From Paramacrobiotus metropolitanus (Eukaryota; Tardigrada; Eutardigrada; Parachela; Macrobiotidae), in contig NW_026570275.1 in NCBI RefSeq assembly GCF_019649055.1, positions 372,001 through 436,000 of the forward strand: 64,000 nt of DNA, written 5' to 3'. The notes beneath the pieces are model-generated. The model had not been told where the DNA came from, ran no database searches, and was given only the letters and a program-made list of their open reading frames with translations. A program made the translations under genes and the position numbers. Positions 2,715-60,389 of this stretch are shown here, one piece after another (position 1 is the stretch's first letter; each line of letters begins with the position of its first letter).

Positions 2715-3925
2715 TTAACACAGGTATTCTTCCAGTGTTGGTGGTTCAACATTAAAATACTGACTTGCTTGGTTAGGGTACAAACAGTTACAACAATTTG
2801 TCAAAAAAACAGCCACACGAAAAATTTTGTTGACGGGTTTCTCGAATAACTTCATCTGTTTTCTGAAGTCCACAAAAGCGAATTTAACAACCACTTCCTT
2901 GAACCCCCATTCCACAGATTCCCGAACAGTTTTCATGGCATCGTTCTGGTGTCTCTTCACGCGGTTGTACGCTGTCTGAAGTTTTGAGTACGGCTTCCTT
3001 AAATAATCGTTCATTCCATAACCAGAATCTCCATATAGCGCGAATTTCCGGCAAAAGGTGCTCTGCATAGTTTTCAATTGCCCGAGCATTTTACTCTCTT
3101 GAAACATGCGACTGTCATGGACACTACCAGGTTCACCGCCGTACAGGTTGCAAATTAATCCTAAAGCAAAATGTCAGAACTTTAATAAATGTAACATCCA
3201 AAAATTATTGAAATGTACTAAATCTCAGTGAAAGAAGTTTAAAAAAACAATTACAAATTTACAGTAATTTATTAATTGAGAAAAAATATGAATTTACCGT
3301 TTGGTAGTAGAATAGACTGCCACTTGGTGCAGTGGAGACGTTTATGGCCGCTGTACATGATCTTCTGGTTATATGTTGGTCGGCAAATGGGGCGCGCCGT
3401 CCCGTCGATAAAGGCAAAAACATCAGGGAAGACACCTCCTTTCTGTGAGATAGCCGACGCGTACCCCGCGAGATCTTCTTCTGACAACCAGGGATGATCC
3501 AGGCGGGAAAGATGCTTCGACCACAAGCAATCCAGTATTGACAAGACCGCGTAGAAAATTCTCGACATGGAGCCTTGGGAACGGCCAAAAAATTTACGCA
3601 GTTCCATCCATCGATTTGGATAACACAGGCGGCGCAACAAAATGCACAAGGCCTCCACAGCATTTACACAGTCTCCTTCTGCAGTCCACACCAAATCCGG
3701 AATTTTAAGCGCCGTCGCCAACATAGGAAGATCATGCTTCATAAAGCGGAAAAAATCCCAGCATTCCTTCTCGCTTAAAGCATTCAGGCTAAATGATGCT
3801 GCACGCCATTCGTCATGAAAATATGTTTTTCGTCTCCGTCGAAGTATCTTACGTCGCAAAATTAAAAACAGCCGTCGAGAGATATTTTTCCGGAGATACA
3901 ACTTCATTAACGTAGCCAGTTTCAT
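2715..3925 (-). CDS. HARBI1-type DDE transposase
   Basis: Two exons, 3925-3298 and 3160-2715, join through a GTAAAT donor and a TTTAG acceptor, giving 357 residues, the usual length for this family. The splice rebuilds a PNG-LICNLYGG motif exactly at the junction, which supports the model. The catalytic triad is visible: Asp in FAFIDGTAR, Asp in GSVHDSRMF, and Glu in the RESVEWGF helix. The YSGHKR-H-TKWQS and LYGDSGYG motifs are also typical of DDE_Tnp_4/HARBI1 enzymes. The enzyme cuts and pastes the element into TWA-type 3-bp targets. No inactivating change is seen, so the copy could be active or domesticated; the flanking inverted repeats favour a transposon. Confidence 0.9.
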
Positions 3926-4369
3926 TTTTAAATAAACTAAAGCGAATCTGAATCATAAATATTTAAAATCACAATGTCAAGCTTTTTTTGGAACTGAAAT
4001 GCGACAGATAGGTGTGGTGATTTTGACATTTGTGGCAAGTGGTAAAACTGCTTCGAGGGCAGTTACGTTGCTCGCGTCTCGCTTCCGGCGCTAGCGGCCG
4101 AATACTCAAAAGCAGGCCGAATACCAATACAAACACGATTTTAATTTTGATCGGTATCGGGGTCCGTATTCGTGGTCAGCAGATTGCTTTCTGATAACTT
4201 TAAGCAAAACAAAACCGTTTCGAGGGAAAAATGCACTAGTCGAAGTACCAAATTTTCTGCATACTAGTAAAATGGTAGTTCAAGTAATAAATTTTTTACC
4301 TGCCGCTCTGTGAAAACAAGATTGCATATGTTAAAGAAATTGCTGCGCACGCGGTCCATGTAAAAACCT

Positions 4370-11376: not shown

Positions 11377-11660
11377 TTATACATAAAGAAGGAATGGCAA
11401 ATGCGGAACTGCAATTTTGCAACAATGCGATACACAGGTTTGGTCGCATAATGACAGAAGTGCCTCTACAACATCCAGTCCATGGTCATAAGGAATAGGA
11501 GACGGTTCCACAATGCCCCTTGACGGACCGAACGTAAGGATGCAACGGACTTGATCCGTTGCCAGATCCATTTCCTTGGCAATACGGGCCACGTTGTACT
11601 GTCCGCCGAAGAAGTCATCATAAGCATTCAGTTGCAACTCGCCGTGATTGCTGACCACTA
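11377..11660 (-). pseudogene. Homeodomain-like helix-turn-helix exon
   Basis: A TTTTTTTGTAG acceptor ends at 11661. The exon then reads a stretch whose IAKEMDLATDQVRC segment resembles helices 2 and 3 of a homeodomain (LAxxLxLxxxQVxxWF). The tryptophan and the NRR motif that should follow are replaced by ILTFGPS, and the frame then drifts to a stop. It is either a decayed homeobox exon or part of a different HTH protein. No matching exon was found nearby. Confidence 0.35.
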
Positions 11661-12365: not shown

Positions 12366-13367
12366 TCATTGAAGCGCTTCCCAACAAAATAACGACTTAC
12401 CGCTGTTGCTATTCTCGGCGCTAATGTCGATGATTTTTTGAGAATCTGGGAGTGTTGCTGCAGTGTTCTCGTTCGTCAGTGAACCCACCGTGTTCTCATC
12501 CTGTAAATTCGAAATCGGCCAGTCACTTGCGGATCCTGATGAGCGTCGGCGTCGGGATGTGGAACGACGACTGGGCTTTGGTGGAGACGTCATCTGGAGC
12601 TGCGATCCATCGTCGTTCAGACTGCGCACCTGCCACAACTCCGCATCTTGACTGGCCTCCTTCAGTATCTTTTCCACAACCCAAGCACCGGCTTCGGTTT
12701 GTTTCTTTATCTCAGCATACGTACAACCACCTTCTCGGAGTCTCAACACAGTTTCGTGTAGGTGCCGGTATTTGTACTGGCCGCGCTCGCGAAAGGTCTT
12801 CCCGTTCTGTCGCAATAGCGTCTGAAATTGGTACCGGTTCAGGGTGAACTGGCGCATTATACCGGCGCCACTGTGGCCCTGCTCGAACAACTTCAGAATC
12901 TTCACCATTTGTTTCTTGCTGAGAGGCAGACTATCCCGCTTAGCGAAACTTCTGCCGGCCTGCTGTATCACACATTCCACGACGTTGTCATTCAGCTTGA
13001 CCTTGCGTATAATCTCCGTTCGCGTACATCCTTGCTCGAACAGCTCCAGGATCAGCTTCCTTTGCTCATCGCTGACTGCATCTAATCCATCGTTGGCCAA
13101 ATCGGCAGCTCGCAGTATCTTGTACACGGTAGTCAAGTCAACTTTTAACCGCTTGGCAATCTCCAACCGTGTGCACTGTTTCCCACGGTCTAAGCAGAGG
13201 ATGTCTTGCTTCTGCTCATCGGTTAGCCGCTTCTTATGCACTCTCCCTTCTTTCTTAAGGAACCGCCCCAGTGCGCTGTGGTTAATGTCGGCTCGTTCGA
13301 CAATTTCCTGACGTGTACAGCCGCGGTACAGTAACTTGAAAATCAACTTCTGTTTCTTTTCATCCAT
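12366..13367 (-). CDS. Penta-HTH protein: five tandem helix-turn-helix repeats
   Basis: ATG at 13367 opens a frame with five tandem repeats of about 40-45 residues, each of the form (S/T)-x-(E/K)-(Q/K)-x-x-x-I-L-x-L-(F/L)-x-x-G-C-T-R-x-E-I followed by a second helix. Residues run roughly 2-42, 47-90, 96-137, 145-186 and 195-233. Examples are LIFKLLYRGCTRQEI, LILELFEQGCTRTEI and VLRLREGGCTYAEI. The pattern resembles the HTH of Hin-type recombinases and Tc1/IS630-like transposases. The C-terminal third is disordered, with an RRSTSRRRRSS basic patch and a Ser/Asn-rich tail. No catalytic domain is visible. A good donor, G|GTAAGT, follows codon 322 (exon end 12401); unspliced, the frame stops at 12366. 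Upstream, an intron from 13828 to 13393 (CAG|GTAAGT donor, GCGCTAG acceptor) fits a 5' leader exon. The role is probably sequence-specific nucleic acid binding; whether host gene or domesticated transposase part is open. Confidence 0.75.
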   Translation of the reverse strand: MDEKKQKLIFKLLYRGCTRQEIVERADINHSALGRFLKKEGRVHKKRLTDEQKQDILCLDRGKQCTRLEIAKRLKVDLTTVYKILRAADLANDGLDAVSDEQRKLILELFEQGCTRTEIIRKVKLNDNVVECVIQQAGRSFAKRDSLPLSKKQMVKILKLFEQGHSGAGIMRQFTLNRYQFQTLLRQNGKTFRERGQYKYRHLHETVLRLREGGCTYAEIKKQTEAGAWVVEKILKEASQDAELWQVRSLNDDGSQLQMTSPPKPSRRSTSRRRRSSGSASDWPISNLQDENTVGSLTNENTAATLPDSQKIIDISAENSNSGKSLFCWEALQ

Positions 13368-33711: not shown

Positions 33712-33998
33712 AACTGGTAGCAGATCGTTGGTTTCCTGTGTGGTGACCTTTCATATTTCTACAACATCAAGGTGATAATTCCTTCGCCCAGTAAACAATA
33801 TTTCTGTCCTTGTCACTTCGCCTATTACTCTTGCCCATTGCCAAAAACGATGCTTCGCATAACTCCGCGGAATTTACCGCCCAGCTTACCACCGCCCATC
33901 GCTCTCCTGTTCACGGATGTTTCCGAGGGATATTTTCTGCACACCTGAACGGCTAATCCGAGGGAGTTTGGTCCAATCGACGCCATTTCATCGACATC

Positions 33999-35118
33999 AT
34001 GAGCCACTCTACTGGAAAAATATATACTTGCCGTTATTGTGGATTTGTCGCCCTATCACGACGTGTTGCTCGTCTTCATCGCATACAAATACAAAAGGCG
34101 CGATTTTTTTGCGCGAAAACACCAACTTTATTCCAAATACTACACTTATTTGTCCGAAACATTTCCTTAGTGCTAGTATTGTTAAAATTATCTTGCCACT
34201 CCCAGAAATGGCCTATTTCCACCACTGTACCTACTTAGCTCATGATGAAAATGACCTTAAAAACCATGTTGAACATCATCAAATTTTCAATTGTATCAAT
34301 CGACGGCCAGATTATCTCGACGCCATCCGGATTTATTACGAATATAGGGGAACTCTACCCCGTCAATCTACATCATAGTTATTATCATTTTTGCAGTAAA
34401 GGCTACTTCTGTAAGAAGTGCGGATGTTGGACAGCATTTAGGCCTCAGTCTTGTATTCACTGTATCAATCATTGTCAGGGCCTATTTTACCAGTTATACT
34501 CTGATACCCCAACTCATCATTATCATTGCCCATATTCCATGTTCGCCATGCACGGGCCTCCTCCAAAGATGTCGGTGACAACACTAACTATCATCAACCG
34601 TGCACATATCTGGCTAAAAATCTTACGGACTTTAAAAATCATAAATATTACCATCAGATTTACTTATACGTAGCTGATCGACCTGATCACAAAATCTTCA
34701 TGCGCCAATATTTCAAAAACTATCGAAACAATCGTCCGTTAAAAAATGGAAAACAGTGCGAAGGTCTTATAGGCACTATACCTGACCGTAGTTTTAAAAT
34801 TTTTGATTTCCTAGCACTTAGTTTTGACCAGTTAGGTATCATACCTGGTCAATATATTTTGCGTTTAGTTATAGATACGGAGTGTTCCCACCGTCCTGCA
34901 GTTATTGTGGATACAATTCGTCCCATACCCAGTTTGTGGCGTTTCATCTCCGACGCCATAACCTCTGCCCACGGGACTTCGACGAACACGCACACCAGTG
35001 CCGTACTACTCGTATGTGCACCTACGTTGGCGTCTCAGAAAAAGACTCCATCAATCATGAGTTCCTTCATAAAGAGTTAATCCGCCACCAGTATGGACGC
35101 CTGACACGCGCCATGTAA
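33999..35118 (+). pseudogene. Degraded poly-C2H2 zinc-finger gene
   Basis: At least three modules of about 115-120 codons can be followed across several + frames. Each starts with a C2H2-like finger (YTCRYCGFVA, FCKKCGCWTAF, CSYCGYNSSHTQF-x-FHLRRH). Each may then carry a second His-rich block (CTYLAHDENDLKNHVEHHQI, CTYLAKNLTDFKNHKYYHQI). Frameshifts and lost cysteines or histidines break the reading, so it is most likely dead. The third module is the best preserved and ends at TAA near 35118. The whole block sits between two 0.3 kb direct repeats. Confidence 0.6.
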
Positions 35119-49347: not shown

Positions 49348-50335
49348 TTAAAGCAAACAGCTCTTTGCTTCTCCAGTGTTTTCTGAGGCATGTTCCATCT
49401 TGCCTGGTGCGCAGAAATAGTCCTCGGAGCAAAAGTTAATCTCGATGGTCTCGATGAGACTGCGTACTAGAGGCACATAATGCAGCTTGTCGAAACGTTC
49501 CGTTGCGAGATCAAACGGTCCCCCTTCGATATACATAGAACGTAAAACTTGAGCGGTTTGATCGCCTGACGCCGAAAACTCCACAATGTCAGAAAAACAT
49601 ACATTGTTGTGTTGCCATATTGCATGCTGGCAAATTTTCCGGACGCTACTGCCATTGGAACGTCTAGCGAATCAGCATTTTATGGCTGTTTTATTTTAAG
49701 TGGGTACCAATCCGCACCATAGACAAAGTCAAGGAGTAGAAAGAGCACTGCTATTTTTTCCAAACGGTTCATCGGGGGTACCATCTTCTTCCACCACTTC
49801 TTCAACATACTGCAGAATACCGAGCAACCATTCCACTTAGTAATGGTTTTTAGAACAACGCAGCTTGCCCCGCAAGCTGTTAAACGTCACTTCCCTTTCT
49901 AAGCGTTACAGAATTAAAACGTACATTAAGCACTTTTGTGGTACTGTTACTCGAAAGAATGCGTGAAGGTGTAAAACTGCTGCCTTTCAAGTCTACAAAG
50001 TTTGGCGAACGGCAATTAACGCCGTGAGCGTATATAATCCCGGTTGAATGACAATCACATGCTGAACTGATGACAAAGAAGTAGCAGTGATGACATCGTA
50101 TTCGTTTGCGGTTAACTCTTCTTCTTTCGGTATGTTGTAGAAGGAGTTTGCGTATTGAAGTTCCACCAAACCTACTTCCCATGTGCCCGATAACGAAATT
50201 GGAACTTTTAGCTTTGTCGCGAGACTGATGCTGGGTTTCCAGTCCGGATGGTTGTCGAAGGAATAGTGTGTGCGTGCCGGCGCGATGTACACGTGTATTT
50301 AAATCTGTTAGCGATGGATTACCACGCGCGCGCAC
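49348..50335 (-). pseudogene. Polinton/Maverick penton-like (minor capsid) relic
   Basis: Near its start the minus strand reads LSGTWEVGLVELQYANSFYN, the hallmark of the Polinton minor capsid (penton-type) jelly-roll protein. Near its end it reads YVPLVRSLIETIEINF, matching the conserved Y.PV....F..IEI.I segment before the C-terminus. The middle is scattered over two or more frames with stops. The opposite strand to the polymerase is normal for these elements. Major capsid, ATPase, protease and integrase were not found. Confidence 0.7.
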
Positions 50336-53300
50336 AATCTACAATCTGCCACGCGCATCTATGGGGAAAGTGGTAAAGGATCAAAAGCCCTTGCCATGCC
50401 AGACAGCCATGCTGCGAAAATGTTTTTGTGGTATCCTGTTATTGTGGTTTTCTACATAAAAAGTGTCTGCAAAAGTTCAAAACAAGTGCTAAATTACGAT
50501 GTATAAAGCCTGAAAGTTCGACATCGGCTCCGATCGTTGCGTTTTCAGTCCTCTAACTGCCAGCAGCGGTGCTGCCAGCCGGTTAGATCAGCAGATGTTC
50601 CTATGTTTTTAGCTATTTTTTAGTATTCATTTGGAATTTTGTTTGAATTTTTTAACATACTTTTTGGAAACGGGACGTCATCCTGGGCCGCTCTTATCAG
50701 CGTCCCGTATCTAAAAGCTGGCCAAAAGCCGTGTATTAACGCTGTCACATGATAGAAAACATAGCGACCTTGAATGAAATATATATTTCGTTCCGTTTTG
50801 GTAGCATGTGCAGTGAAATGAATAGTGGACGCTTCCATGTCACGCTTTCAGAAGCCAAGTTTTACTCGCCAAGTATACTTCAGCAGCCACTTCACTTATT
50901 ATATACTTCAGCAGCCACTGCGGGTATACTTCATTTATTTTCCGATCAATCGTGAATACTGTCGTCACTGCCGTAAAACCCTGCAGGGTCTTGATTCGGA
51001 ATCAACACCCAGCCGGGTTTTTTGGCCGGACTTTGCCCTAATCTGGATTCCAGTTAGTTCTTATTGGGATTTTCTGCAGCAAGCAGCACGAATCAAATGA
51101 CCCGTATTCGCGCTTGGTACAGACCGGTACCTGTTTCGATAATGCCAAGCAAAAGTCGGGCAACGTATGGGAATTTAAATACACTTCGACCGCAGAATCA
51201 AGGTATTTCAGAAGGGTGACTCATGAAGTGGTTAACTGTGGACATGAACGAATCACTCTTGAAGAAATTAACGGAACGTTGTGGTCAGTTGCCGGTAAAA
51301 TTCGCTCGGTCGAAAAATACGGGATACGCATATTCACATGCTAACAAACTATGTTTGGCAAACTATGTTTCGCAAAGTGATAAATTAGATCAGAAATCTG
51401 ATTGTGGTGTCACACAATTGTATCAAGGGCCATCTATTCTGTCAACAAAGCAGGTCGTAGCCGGCATTAGGATAATAAAAGATATGTGCAGAACCAGGTG
51501 GATCGATTAATTAATACTACGAAGACTAGTTTATAATGAGACCTATTGCGCAATCGTGAACGACCTTCATTTATTACTTCGTTTTACAACGACGAATCAG
51601 AACCGAAAATGGACAGTGGTACACAAAGCTGTTAACTGGACACTTCACCACAGTACCTACTTCAAAGGAAAGGTATTTGGCGATCCGGACAGTTTGTGCT
51701 TCATAAATTTACAAAAAAGACGTCCACAGCAAGCATCATTATTCCGTTCTTGTTAATAGCTGCTATCAGAGGTGCCAAACAAAAACAGCCTGCTGCAAGC
51801 AGTTGCCTTTAACATTAATGTAAGCCATGCCCAGAACAGAGCAAGCAAGGCAGTATTTCAACCTTCAGATTCATAATCCTTGGTTTCTTGTTCACCATAA
51901 CAGCGAGCTTCATATAACCTTGCAGTGTCACCCTTTCACCCTAAGTGCACTGCTTTCATGCGTGAAACAAGCATTTTGCACCATTCCATTATGTGAATTG
52001 CGCAGAACACAAATCTTTGTGTGGTATAATACCAAATCTTAACTTTGATCTTATTATGATAGCAATTTAGCAGACCGTGCGCTCAGTATTCTCACGATCA
52101 GTTGATCAGCATATTTTCTCCGTTGAATTTTTAAGGTGTCTCAGTTTTTGGCCATCGATGAGGGTTTGCTTAGTGAAATTGTTTTGCAGTTCGTGCGACT
52201 CAAACGGCAAGAAGTCGAACTTTAAAGGGTTCGTGAATGATTTGTAACTAAACGGGATCAGTCCCCCTGAAGTGGTACTTTAACACTTATCGTAACTGTT
52301 TGTGTAGAAATTGAAAGAACAATTCACCACGTGCAGGACAGACATAACAAAAATCCTTATTCTGAACAGCCACAGGTTCAGACAGGTTCGCTTCATTGCG
52401 GAAAAAAAGTCTTTCTTTCGTCGGAACAGTAGGGGGAATAACTGCAAAAATCTCCAGTAATCTCTGAAATTTAAGACACAAAAAAAGCAGAACGGATTTG
52501 AAGTCTATGTGATTGTGGAAGGTAAAGTGGAAGGTAAATCTCTTCTGTTGAATTTGCCGAAATTTTCTCCAAGCTTCCAGTCAGGCATGTATTCATACGT
52601 ATGTTAAAATTGGTCGGAACCTGAGAAGACATAAAAGATCCAACTTCGCACCGACACGGATGTCTGATGCGTCAGCTTTAAGCTGCGTATCTAACTTGTA
52701 GTCAAGGGGTTTCTTCACTCTGGGTAAAGTGGAATTGCAGCACACTCTGGAATTGCAGCACAATTCTAGGAAAAGAATTGATCTGACGGCATTAGGATTG
52801 CGTGCCACTTGGACAAAGGCGAGAGCAATTGTGTTCCTTCTTATTATGATAAAGTGTCTGGTCACAGAGATAAAAATATTTAATGGAAATGGCATGGAAA
52901 CCAATTGTTTCTGGCTGCTCTGGAAGAAAGGCAATCGTGCCCCAGTTGCGAATATGTTAATTATGGGCACTCATGTTCTAATTTGTTAAATCAGGAGCAC
53001 CGGAAAAAGCCAACATCAGGCGCTCGTTCGAAGCGTAGTGGAAGATTTTGCCGGCGCTGTAACTGCGATACTGGATTCGCCATCAAATGAAACCTCAAAT
53101 TTATTAGTGTATGTTCGTCCAAAAGTGCTTCGTTGCCCTTGAGTAGTTTCTTTACCGGGCAATTAAATGCCTTCGGATCTTGTAATAAAAAAACGATTAC
53201 AGACATAAAGCCCATATTTTGTGTATTGACTAAAAATCCTTCAGTAAATGCCAATAGGATAGAAATCGTACGGGCTTTTTCTTGGACATTATCTTTAACT

Positions 53301-54738: not shown

Positions 54739-55370
54739 TTACCATATATATGCAAATGATTTCAACGGGACTCGACAAACGGAGCATTTATATTTGATGA
54801 AAAGTCCGGGTGCACAAGCAGAACAGTGCACATGGCCACAGGCGGGGACAAAAAAGGTGATACCTTGAGTATGCAGGACGGCGACGCTTGCGAGGCAAAT
54901 AGGGCAAATGAGAGTCGGCATTGCAGGAGGGTCAACGGAAGAAACGGCGGGTATAGCGAGGATTTCAGGTGATGGAGCGTACGCGGGTACAATAGCGATT
55001 GCTGGTGAGGGTGGTAACGCAGAGTTAAGCACGGGAATGGCTTGGGATGTCGTCGCGGCTTTGAAAACGGGAATAGCAGGCGGCGGCGGGATACCTTCCG
55101 GCATCGGGATAACTTCCAGTGCCATAAAAATAGGGTAAGAGGTGCGGGAAGGTGTGGGTGAATCCTGGATCAAGATGATAGGGATTTCCGGTAGGACGGA
55201 GACTCCCGGCGGGGAGAAGTAGTGATCCAAGTTGGGCGATCCAATAGCGCTATACGTCAGGTACCGAATGGCAGCTTGTCCGTCGAAGCGACACACCAAG
55301 TCTTTTGAGGATCGGAAATGGGTTGGGAAGGTTTGGCGCAATGCGGCGAAGAAAATCCTAAGACGACGCT
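54739..55370 (-). CDS. Pro/Ala-rich RING-finger protein (partial at 5' end)
   Basis: The last exon encodes about 200 residues. A C-terminal C3HC4 RING has all eight ligands: CPIC, then C-x-H (PACGH), C-x2-C (HCSAC), and a final CSVC, ending at SFAYIW. Such fingers act in E3 ubiquitin ligases. The N-terminal two thirds is Pro/Ala/Ile-rich and low in complexity, preceded by a better-ordered FRSSKDLVCRFDGQAAIRYL block. No ATG opens the frame; a TAG-ending acceptor (TCTTAG at about 55371, or CTTAG at about 55358) implies an upstream exon that I could not place. A decayed paralogue is at 39213-39480. Confidence 0.7.
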
Positions 55371-57020: not shown

Positions 57021-57026
57021 CCAACA

Positions 57027-60000
57027 ATGCCTAAAGCAAACAAGCCTGTGCGTTCAACAGCCAACCCGTCTAATGATCCTGAAATCGTCGAAGTCAAGAC
57101 TGATTGGGCTACTGTAACTCGTCGAAAGATCATCAAAGGAAATCATCGAACTGGAGGAAACGACGATGCAAACCCACGACACAACCTGGCCAAAAAGCTA
57201 AGTCTGCAACGTAAAGCTCATTTAGATGTATGCGTAATGGGTATTCCGCTACATAATAATGCGGGATTCGAATCTACAGAAGAATATGCGAACGATCTAA
57301 AGTCATCACTGGGGGATTTGGGTGTAAATGTACGCTTTGTTAAAGTCTTTGAGCGTAAAGAAGGTGACAAGCGTAGTACTACTTGCGCGCGTATTGGTAC
57401 CTTCGCCGATTGTGAAGATGCCCTGATGTCAGCAGATATATGGCCTACGAATGTATGTGAGAAATTTAGATTGGTCAAACCTGCAGTAAAATCTAAGCTA
57501 TCGGCGTTCACAAATGTGAAATTCAAACTTTGTAATATTAACGGTATACTTTCCAAGTCCGCTTCCGTAAAACAGTTTTGTAGTGGTTCTGACATAGTCG
57601 GATTTACAGAAACTTGGGATAGATCTGAATACCCAGATTCGTTATTCGCTGATTTGAGAAGCTTCAACGTTTTTAGGCGACCTAGAAGTACTGATCCCCA
57701 TGGTGGCGTGTGCTGTGTCGTTCGAAAAAATTTAGACGCTGTAAGACGAACAGACCTGGAAAATAACGATCTTGAGTTGCTGTTTATTGAAATAACAAAA
57801 ATTAATATTTTAGCTGCGGCATTTTATTCGGCGCCTTCTCGAGTTTCTATAGATCTTCCAATTTTGATCGAACATCTGAGAAATATCCCGCATGCCAATT
57901 TTTCAAAACTGCTACTTATTGGTGATTTTAATCTCCCCGATGTTGATTGGAGTAAAAATTGTGCGAGTAGCAAACATAGTCGTGAATTTTTAAGGTGTTT
58001 GAAAGAGTTTAATTTAAAGCAAATAATTTTTTGCCCTACGCGTAAACACAATATTCTTGACCTTTGCATTATTCCTACAATGTGGTCAGCAAGTGTCCCT
58101 GAAAATATTTGCCCTCCGTCAACAACTAACGATCACAATGGGGTATTCATTGAATTTCCTAGGCAGAAACGAAAAGATACTAAAGTACTAAAAAAGCGTT
58201 GGGTAATTACGGATGAAGCTAGTTTACAGTTTCGTAACCATTTGTATGAAATTGATTGGAATGCATTGCTACTAAACCTTAGTCCGGATGAGCAAGCGGT
58301 TTTTATTGAAAACACGGTTCTCGAAGCAGCTAAGGCATTCTTTCAGCAAAAAGAGGTCAGGTACAGGATGGCTGAATTCGAGTATCCTGCAAGCTTGCGT
58401 AATGCAATTCGAAGCCGGAACTCTGCATTTGACCGTTTTAAGCGTGAGCTGAACACTTTGCGTAAAGAAAGATTGCGACATGAATGGTTGAAAAAGTCTC
58501 GGTTAGCAGAGAGGCAGGTTAATGCATATTACCGTATGCAAACAATGAAGATTGCGGCTATATCTCGGCATGATAGCAAAAAATTCTGGCGCTTCGTAAA
58601 AGCTGCGGTAGATCGCCCAAATATGCCTCTACTGAAACGACCTAACGGTCTTCATGCTGTGGACGATGAAGAAAAGGCTGAGTGTTTGAATGAACAATAC
58701 GCGAGTGTGTTTGGCCAATGTCCAGTGCATTGTATGGCTGCTGCTCATGTCACTGAAGATGTAACAGAAGAAAGCTTATTTGCTAGCGATATCGACATTT
58801 GGGACGTTCTGCGAGCAATTAATTGTAATAAATCTAGCGGACCGTATGATCTATCTTCAAACCTTCTTAAAGCTTATAGTGCTTCACTGATCCATCCCCT
58901 GAAAATTTTGTTCAATAATTGTTTAAAGAAAAGCGTATTTCCCATGTCATGGAAAACCTTTTTCGTAACTCCTGTCGTCAAACAAGCTGCTGATCAGACC
59001 AACCCTGCAAACTGGCGCCCAGTGGCAATGTTACATCCTCTGTCGAAATTATTTGAAAAATTTATTTGTAAAATTTTGAAAATGCAAATTGGTGATTTTA
59101 CAGATAAACAATTTGCTTACCGTTAAAAACATTCTACCGAACTTTTGTTAACTTTGTTCTGTCAAAAATTAGCCGATGCTAAAGGTCGTGGTAAACGTGT
59201 CGACATTATTCTGTTGGATTATAGCAAGGCTTTCGATAAAGTTGATCACTCTATTTTACTTGCAAAATTATCGAAAATGAATGTTTCGTGTAAAGTTGTA
59301 AACCTTATCAGTAGCTACTTATCAAACCGAGTGCAGTCGGTTATTGTAAATGGCAAGAAATCGGTGTTTTTACCGGCTACAAGCGGAGTCCCTCAAGGGT
59401 CGCTTGTCGGTCCCAAATTGTTTAACTGTCTCCTTAGTGATTTCCCTACTGTTTGTGTCCATGGCAGTGAAATGTTGTTGTTTGCTGATGACGTGATGAT
59501 GTACAAAATAATCGAATCAGATGTGGATGCGCTAGATTTCCAAAAAGATCTGGATGCCGTCACTAAATGGGCGCGCAAGCATAACTTGATTTTCAATGCG
59601 AAAAAGTCCGCCTGTGTTCAGTTCTCGTTCAGAAAGAAAATATCTCAGCCCTATAAAGTAAACGGAGAAAGTGTCCCCATAGTTGATTCGGCTAAGTATT
59701 TAGGAATTTACATAGAGCGCAGCTGCAAATGGAAATTGCAGTCTGAAAATATTTCGAGTCGAATGTTAAAGCGTCTGCGTTACCTTAACACGCTATTTCG
59801 TTCCCGAGACTTGTCAGCACGTTGTATGCTGTATACGAGCCTCGTTCTGTCCATCTCTGATTACTGTGCGTCTGTCACCTTTTCAACTCAAAAAGGACTA
59901 ATCGATAATGTGGAAAACGTTCAAAAAAGATTCATTCAACCACTTCACCTTAAAACTGACCGGAAAGACTATATTGGCAGATTAAAGGAGCTACAATGGG

Positions 60001-60389
60001 AGCCCATTGTACGGCGCAATCTGAACCGCAGTCTTCAGCTTACGTACAAATTTATATACAACCTAATCCCTTATGGCGACAAGTTATTTTGTAAGGGTAC
60101 TGCGGTGCGCTCTGGTGTTGCAGGTGCTACGCGTCATCAGCAGATGATGGCTGGACATCCGTGCCCGATTTTCCCTACTGGATCAACGTTTGGCGGTCAC
60201 ATGCTCCCAACATCGGACCGATCGTTCGCTTATCGGATGGCGAGGATCTGGAATGACTTGCGGATTCCTGCGGAATCGTACCAGAGTCTTGGCAGATTTA
60301 CTGCCGCTTTAAATTGTGTCGATTGGAAGTCTGTAGTGTCTTTGAAGAAGTTTTACCACGCTGAGCACGTGTTGTTATTGAAAATGTAA
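57027..60389 (+). pseudogene. Nearly intact CR1/jockey-like LINE ORF2 with one in-frame stop
   Basis: One frame of 1,120 codons from ATG 57027 to TAA 60389 is interrupted only by a TAA at 59124-59126, between FAYR and KHSTELL. The frame resumes exactly. Residues about 165-380 are an apurinic-type endonuclease (LLIGDFNLPDVDW, TTNDHNGVF). Residues about 590-870 are the reverse transcriptase (NWRPVAMLHPLSKLFEK, LLDYSKAFDKVDH, GVPQGSLVGPKLF, catalytic FADDVMMY, AKYLGIYI). The C-terminus ends ARIWNDLRIP...CVDWKSV. The two enzymes nick target DNA and copy the element RNA there. The single nonsense change suggests a young insertion, or stop read-through. The element's 3' end follows at 60519. Confidence 0.9.

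Follow-up and report, generated by a model that had tools for sequence, protein, structure and literature searches.

Families of proteins that read DNA with a modular array of units are known mainly from the C2H2 zinc fingers. For example, the KRAB and ZAD zinc-finger clusters are large clustered families with variable tandem DNA-reading units, fast-changing contacts and a conserved module that takes no part in the reading. Tandem helix-turn-helix (HTH) units are known in pairs and, in Pipsqueak (Psq), as four tandem Psq motifs; we know of no HTH family with the copy-number range, the clustering and the contact-site variability described here. The Psq motif is characterized, in the accessible part of one study, as a DNA-binding motif of 50 residues (PMC5127561).

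The stretch of DNA analysed here (the window) comprises 64,000 nucleotides from the tardigrade Paramacrobiotus metropolitanus and holds a gene on its minus strand whose first exon encodes five HTH units. On the explanation that we consider probable on balance, the gene belongs to a large tardigrade family of multi-HTH proteins that bind DNA, which has grown by tandem duplication; its variable arrays would read different composite sites and share a common tail, most likely for the control of repeats or transposons. The array, its exons, the cluster of paralogs, the change in copy number, the variability of contacts and the purifying selection are all read from the genome sequence. As in the KRAB and ZAD clusters, the genes are clustered, the number of units changes and the contact residues are variable. 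In contrast to them, the reading units are HTHs, and a C2H2 pair is found in the tail of many paralogs; neither KRAB nor ZAD was among the Pfam families listed for exon 1, exon 2 and two zinc-finger exons.

The likeness to Pipsqueak is that of animal nuclear proteins with HTHs related to those of transposases and recombinases, which in Psq stand in tandem copies, whereas the tardigrade family is large and clustered and has 1 to 10 units. Membership in the Pipsqueak group was considered and rejected, as HTH_psq (which we take to be PF05225) was not among the 22 Pfam families matching the window protein at E<=10; it was likewise not among the best 25 of the 72 Pfam families for 31 members. Tc3, Mos1, Hsmar1, CENP-B and Pax carry two HTHs in series, and Foldseek matches the window model to their structures (1u78, 3hot, 7s03, 1hlv and 6pax); however, these proteins have no more than two units, the TM scores are low and all Foldseek matches have E above 0.001. 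The Hin-type resolvase HTH (PF02796) matches at the level of the unit (6.8e-9, and in 31 of 31 members), but the window protein has five HTH copies and no recombinase catalytic domain. The best PDB profile match is the CAP repeat protein 8vd6 (7.1e-13), with five matched stretches in tandem. Judged from its molecule name and the title of PMC12339374, 8vd6 is an artificial design, and its similarity says nothing about the descent of the tardigrade family. The single window protein gave nothing significant against PDB sequences (best E 0.3).

The family appears to be undescribed, and a large one to be added to a phylum studied mostly for its stress proteins. No description of it was found among the matches listed from titles and abstract openings of the open PMC literature, a search with preprints and subscription journals outside its scope. 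The term 'HTH' does not occur in the accessible part of a paper on tardigrade zinc fingers (PMC12941274), and TDR1 is, in the accessible part of its report, another tardigrade DNA-binding protein (PMC11233135). A family built from HTHs would, if true, show that evolution can build an expandable reader from another fold, and with its natural arrays of 1 to 10 units one could study how HTHs act together on long sites. More tentatively, and somewhat short of an even chance in our judgement, the cluster may be a second, tardigrade solution to the poly-zinc-finger problem, that is, an evolvable HTH cluster with a modular code and a common effector tail which recognises invading or repeated DNA.

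The five-unit array and the gene model

The open reading frame begins with an ATG at 13367 on the minus strand and runs intact for 333 codons to a stop at 12366-12368. Exon 1 (12401-13367) encodes the five HTH units and a tail and ends in AACAGCG directly before a GTAAGT splice donor (12395-12400, phase 1); similar conserved ends of the HTH exon are found in several of eight paralog loci. AlphaFold2, run with no alignment, folds the protein into five three-helix units in series (mean pLDDT 71, pTM 0.31). The predicted fold of the single units is believable; their relative placement is not confident, because pTM is 0.31.

Unit R1 (residues 3-41; 13245-13361) has predicted helices at 3-14, 19-25 and 30-41 and scores 28 bits with the R1 profile. 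R2 (residues 50-96; 13080-13220) has helices at 50-63, 67-74 and 78-96, with Pfam HTH_7 at 50-87. R3 (residues 100-136; 12960-13070) has helices at 100-111, 116-123 and 127-136, and R4 (residues 151-187; 12807-12917) at 151-162, 167-173 and 178-187, both units scoring 46 bits with their profiles. R5 (residues 198-248; 12624-12776) has helices at 192-212, 217-224 and 228-248 and a profile score of 17.7 bits.

The presence of five consecutive HTH units, proposed in an earlier sequence-only reading, is borne out by several lines of evidence. The best self-match of the protein over 36 residues has a score of 71, whereas 300 shuffles reached 45 at most (mean 20.8, sd 5.4). Profiles built from one repeat position of the paralogs, and trained without the window protein and its two closest paralogs, also match other repeats of the window protein. 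Pfam finds HTH_7 (6.8e-9) and HTH_23 (5.6e-7). With three-helix units and profile support, the protein thus qualifies as an HTH protein of the homeodomain-like or resolvase type. The recurring GCTRxEI core holds in part: it is exact in R1 and R3 and nearly so in R2 (QCTRLEI) and R5 (GCTYAEI), and it is weak in R4 (GHSGAGI). As had been noticed, no catalytic domain is present among the 22 Pfam families that match at E<=10. The tail after R5 (12401-12623), which had been called basic and Ser-rich, does contain an Arg/Ser-rich patch, but its net charge is -1 overall.

The gene model differs from the open frame first reported. The frame had been taken as coding down to 12366; its last 11 or so codons (12366-12400), with the stop, are probably intronic, because they lie behind the GTAAGT donor. 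Exon 2 (11377-11657, minus strand) begins at the acceptor TTTTTTTGTAG, in frame (phase 1), and runs to the next stop. It was recovered in a whole-genome search with exon 2 of a paralog on contig C60 (E 1.7e-8). The motif YDDFFGGQY..IAK..L..V..IL is conserved in exon 2, the version in the window being YDDFFGGQYNVARIAKEMDLATDQVRCIL, and many arrays of the family are followed by this conserved motif. In the window gene, as judged by sequence, the five-HTH exon is followed in frame by the motif; 11377-11657 is presumably the last exon, and the two exons would be joined in vivo. Exon 2 of the window gene may itself encode a sixth HTH: it has an HTH-like profile match (89% probability, uncalibrated), and its predicted fold has pLDDT 52.

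Family size, cluster and number of units

The earlier reading had seen a single protein; it is in fact one member of a family counting 79 loci or more, and its gene has a second exon. The genome (169.8 Mb, 533 contigs) is that of a tardigrade by its CAHS genes, a CAHS fragment giving 18 matches with identities of up to 78%. An insect host, suggested at first by a mosquito-like look of the window, was rejected: the arthropod cuticle family PF00379 had no match, nor had the nematode cuticle collagens PF01484 (weak evidence, as control genomes gave no match to either), and antistasin had 14. A search of the genome with the window protein gave 116 matches at E<=10, 91 of them with E<=1e-3. Matches within 2.5 kb on one strand were joined, which merges the 91 into at least 79 loci, and the counts are lower bounds. 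Contig C51 holds 47 of the 79 loci between 11.7 and 558.3 kb (547 kb), with a median spacing of 8.9 kb, and 41 of these 47 are on one strand. Among 35 members on C51, the distance between sequences rises with that along the contig (r=0.46, with 0 of 2000 permutations as high). The trend is r=0.49 on R4-R5 alone and r=0.32 within 20 members of the five-unit type (1 of 2000). Nearer genes on C51 are more alike, as tandem duplication would give.

The window gene lies on a contig other than C51, and its closest paralogs are on C143 (70%) and C158 (61%). In these paralogs (L002/L011 on C143, L003/L012 on C158), R4 and R5 are in separate frames. Between these two units they apparently carry an intron that is missing in the window gene, which would be a gain or loss within a small clade.

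The number of HTH units per open frame ranges from 1 to 10. Four to six units are found in 40 of 54 aligned open frames, three in 5 and two in 9; the 54 were picked from 73 matching frames, leaving out fragments and three double arrays, and the profiles used for counting were trained on the same paralogs, several units scoring low. At the extremes, locus L065 has one unit, and L020 (C204), L027 (C44) and L031 (C151) have ten in frames of 674-907 codons. In L020 and L027 the whole array is duplicated, the two five-unit halves being 53% identical in L020 and 49% in L027. L065 and its neighbour L066 (C55, 295-307 kb) lie about 65-76 kb from the window and consist of one or two weak HTH units with a two-finger zinc-finger frame; they may represent the family in its simplest or oldest form.

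Contact positions, selection and tail modules

The predicted contact residues of R1 to R5 are HSGR, LTYK, DNEC, RYQT and AWEK. The array had been likened to tandem zinc fingers reading a long, repetitive DNA site. The first half of this idea survives, as a nuclease-free tandem HTH array is a likely DNA binder; the repetitive site is not supported, as each of the five units has its own set of four main predicted contact residues. For the same reason, the target is expected to be long, non-repetitive and composite. The third helix of each three-helix unit is expected to enter the major groove, one unit following the other along the DNA, and the array as a whole would read one such site. Across the family, gene duplication, gain and loss of HTH units and rapid change of the recognition-helix contacts would then give each paralog a different site. 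The four-residue contact set is distinct in 50 of 51 aligned members for R4 and in 48 of 50 for R5.

Nonsynonymous divergence between paralogs is highest at positions 15, 14 and 18 of the unit, where the third helix starts and makes its first turn, followed by 3, 4, 22, 19 and 16, and is lowest at position 6, a buried Ile. The contact set 14, 15, 18 and 19 was named after this position-by-position profile had been seen, and its nonsynonymous change is 0.325 against 0.209 at other exposed positions and 0.129 in the core (16 pairs); of 17550 possible sets of four positions outside the core, 3 do as well. Without two pairs of the short type, the values are 0.345 against 0.208, and in 13 of the 14 pairs left the contact set is the higher. 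Seven further pairs gave 0.309 against 0.200 (Fisher p=4e-4, a test which treats sites as independent), with one of the seven running in the opposite direction; one of them has a member in common with the first set. Within that first set, there is little excess in R3 (0.220 against 0.204) and between the window gene and its C143 paralog (0.284 against 0.262). We take the fast-changing positions to agree with Ser174 and Arg178 of Hin. The accessible part of a survey of HTH-DNA structures gives interface positions 10, 11, 14 and 15 as the most important (PMC4653904); the fastest positions here share their i, i+1, i+4, i+5 spacing, the register not being matched residue by residue. The pN/pS ratio at the contact positions is 0.81 (0.61-1.09), or 0.89 (0.69-1.22) without the short-type pairs, and the fast change could be relaxed constraint, because the contact positions do not exceed neutrality.

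The units could also act mainly as a scaffold on which proteins or RNAs assemble, rather than as a DNA reader. Some units of the window protein are near neutral, and R3 (DNEC) and R5 (AWEK) have acidic contact residues, so that these two may not bind DNA or may contribute little; the geometry between units is not confident at the pTM given above. The zinc-finger exon of the C60 paralog also has as its best match zf-C2H2_jaz, a family to which Pfam ascribes binding of double-stranded RNA, although the match stays under the cut-off. Against this, the most variable positions are spaced like the base contacts of HTHs, and R1 and R4 have net charges of +6 and +8. We rate a scaffold as quite improbable.

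As regards selection, 45 pairs of paralogs with more than 50% identity have dN/dS values between 0.17 and 0.68. Neutral evolution, which would have spoken against a functional protein, was not found for the window gene: its dN/dS against the C143 paralog is 0.18 (interval 0.11-0.28), a rough value because dS in the window clade is near saturation (1.5-1.8). A functionless open frame of decaying or neutral tandem repeats could account for the internal stops in 10 of the 79 loci, for the low score of several units and for the 3 of 45 pairs with an upper bound of dN/dS at 1 or above. It is contradicted in the main by the other 42 pairs, whose upper bootstrap bound is below 1 (0.28 for the window gene and its closest paralog), by the splice sites of the window and C60 genes and by the conserved exon 2, and we regard it as barely credible.

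The same purifying selection would suit an ordinary lineage-specific family of transcription factors, regulating host genes (e.g. those for sex, the germline or stress) and unconnected with transposon control. The strong constraint in the window clade (dN/dS 0.17-0.18, dS near saturation) is as for a stable regulator, and the window gene lies outside the C51 cluster. However, the size of the family, its clustering and the turnover at contact positions are more like arms-race families than stable regulators, and this alternative seems unlikely to us. In the preferred reading of a multi-HTH family with variable arrays, the most likely use would be the control of repeated or transposon DNA, a role suggested by analogy with the KRAB or ZAD zinc-finger clusters.

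The family proteins are presumably expressed, and presumably bind DNA and read their sites with the array. The conserved tail, made up of exon 2 and, in many paralogs, of a two-finger C2H2 exon, would supply the common action, most likely the recruitment of chromatin or transcription factors. In the C60 paralog, the zinc-finger exon is the third (phase 1) and encodes C-x2-C-x12-H-x5-H followed by a second finger-like stretch; besides zf-C2H2_jaz, its best family, it matches zf-met, and both are below the curated cut-offs. Using the first 49 of 73 zinc-finger matches, such an exon lies downstream on the same strand, with no HTH locus between, at 38 of the 79 loci, so the C2H2 tail is not universal in the family. 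From the same 49 matches, a zinc finger stands within 3 kb of a locus downstream in 28 cases and upstream in 7, an intervening HTH locus being barred in the downstream count and not in the upstream control. For the window gene, no zinc-finger exon was found in the window, near the gene in the genome search, or in the DNA fetched downstream of the two closest paralogs, and the common tail is therefore incomplete there.

Both modules are more conserved than the array. Identity is 0.52 in exon 2 against 0.35 in the array of the same genes (higher in 42 of 45 gene pairs), and 0.59 in the zinc-finger exon against 0.28 in the array (higher in 66 of 66); the comparison favours modules that can be found by similarity search. 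On R4-R5 alone, the array reaches 0.33 in the zinc-finger comparison, with the module ahead in every one of the 66 pairs, and exon 2 likewise remains more conserved than the array. Some array identities were lowered by 14 short-type members without true units in the R1-R3 columns; when the module comparison and the contact-position tests were repeated without this distortion, the results held.

The transposase question and the neighbours of the gene

A transposase origin of the window protein is possible. Stated in full, the family would go back to a DNA transposon of the Tc1/mariner, pogo/CENP-B or a similar type, whose DNA-binding part was multiplied and domesticated, or it would still be part of a non-autonomous element. 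Several profile matches point this way: HTH_23 matches 31 of 31 members scanned, as HTH_7 does, CENP-B_N matches 30 of 31 and HTH_SB (Sleeping Beauty) 14 of 31, and in the PDB the Sleeping Beauty DNA-binding domain matches at 1.7e-4. However, HTH models of bacterial resolvases, sigma factors and LuxR match too, and short HTHs match many models. Transposases carry a DDE domain, but none was found among the Pfam families listed for the window protein, nine paralog parts and exon 2 of the window gene, four of these lists giving the best 25 families. The in-phase splice sites of the two genes checked and the clustering mostly on one strand are also gene-like. We consider such a descent somewhat unlikely; it concerns origin and is compatible with the main reading.

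A full-length transposase with a DDE domain in a missed exon, the hit which would have undone the first reading, was not found as far as tested. The candidate for such an exon, at 2718-3952 (minus strand), consists of PIF/Harbinger DDE transposase ORFs (PF13359, 2.4e-13) and was rejected within the same limits, as it belongs to a separate, dispersed Harbinger family. The genome contains 68 matches to this ORF, itself counted, and two of the other copies show 97 and 99% identity, which suggests a recently mobile family. In a paralog at locus L013, about 570 bases lie between the HTH frame and the frame with exon 2 and the zinc finger.

Other elements were observed in the window. At 33863-35115 (plus strand), there are ORFs with repeated finger-like Cys/His stretches, two scanned parts of which gave no match in Pfam. 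A RING-like zinc finger ends a Pro-rich ORF at 54742-55368 (minus strand; PF14634 at 1.5e-5, below the curated cut-off). At 57021-60386 (plus strand) lies a non-LTR retrotransposon that encodes an endonuclease and a reverse transcriptase (PF14529; PF00078 at 2.6e-21); a stop at 59124-59126 breaks its frame. Likewise, ORFs at 49351-50338 (minus strand) contain a GTWEVGLVELQYANSFYNIP stretch, which presumably recalls the minor capsid proteins of Polinton/adintovirus elements.
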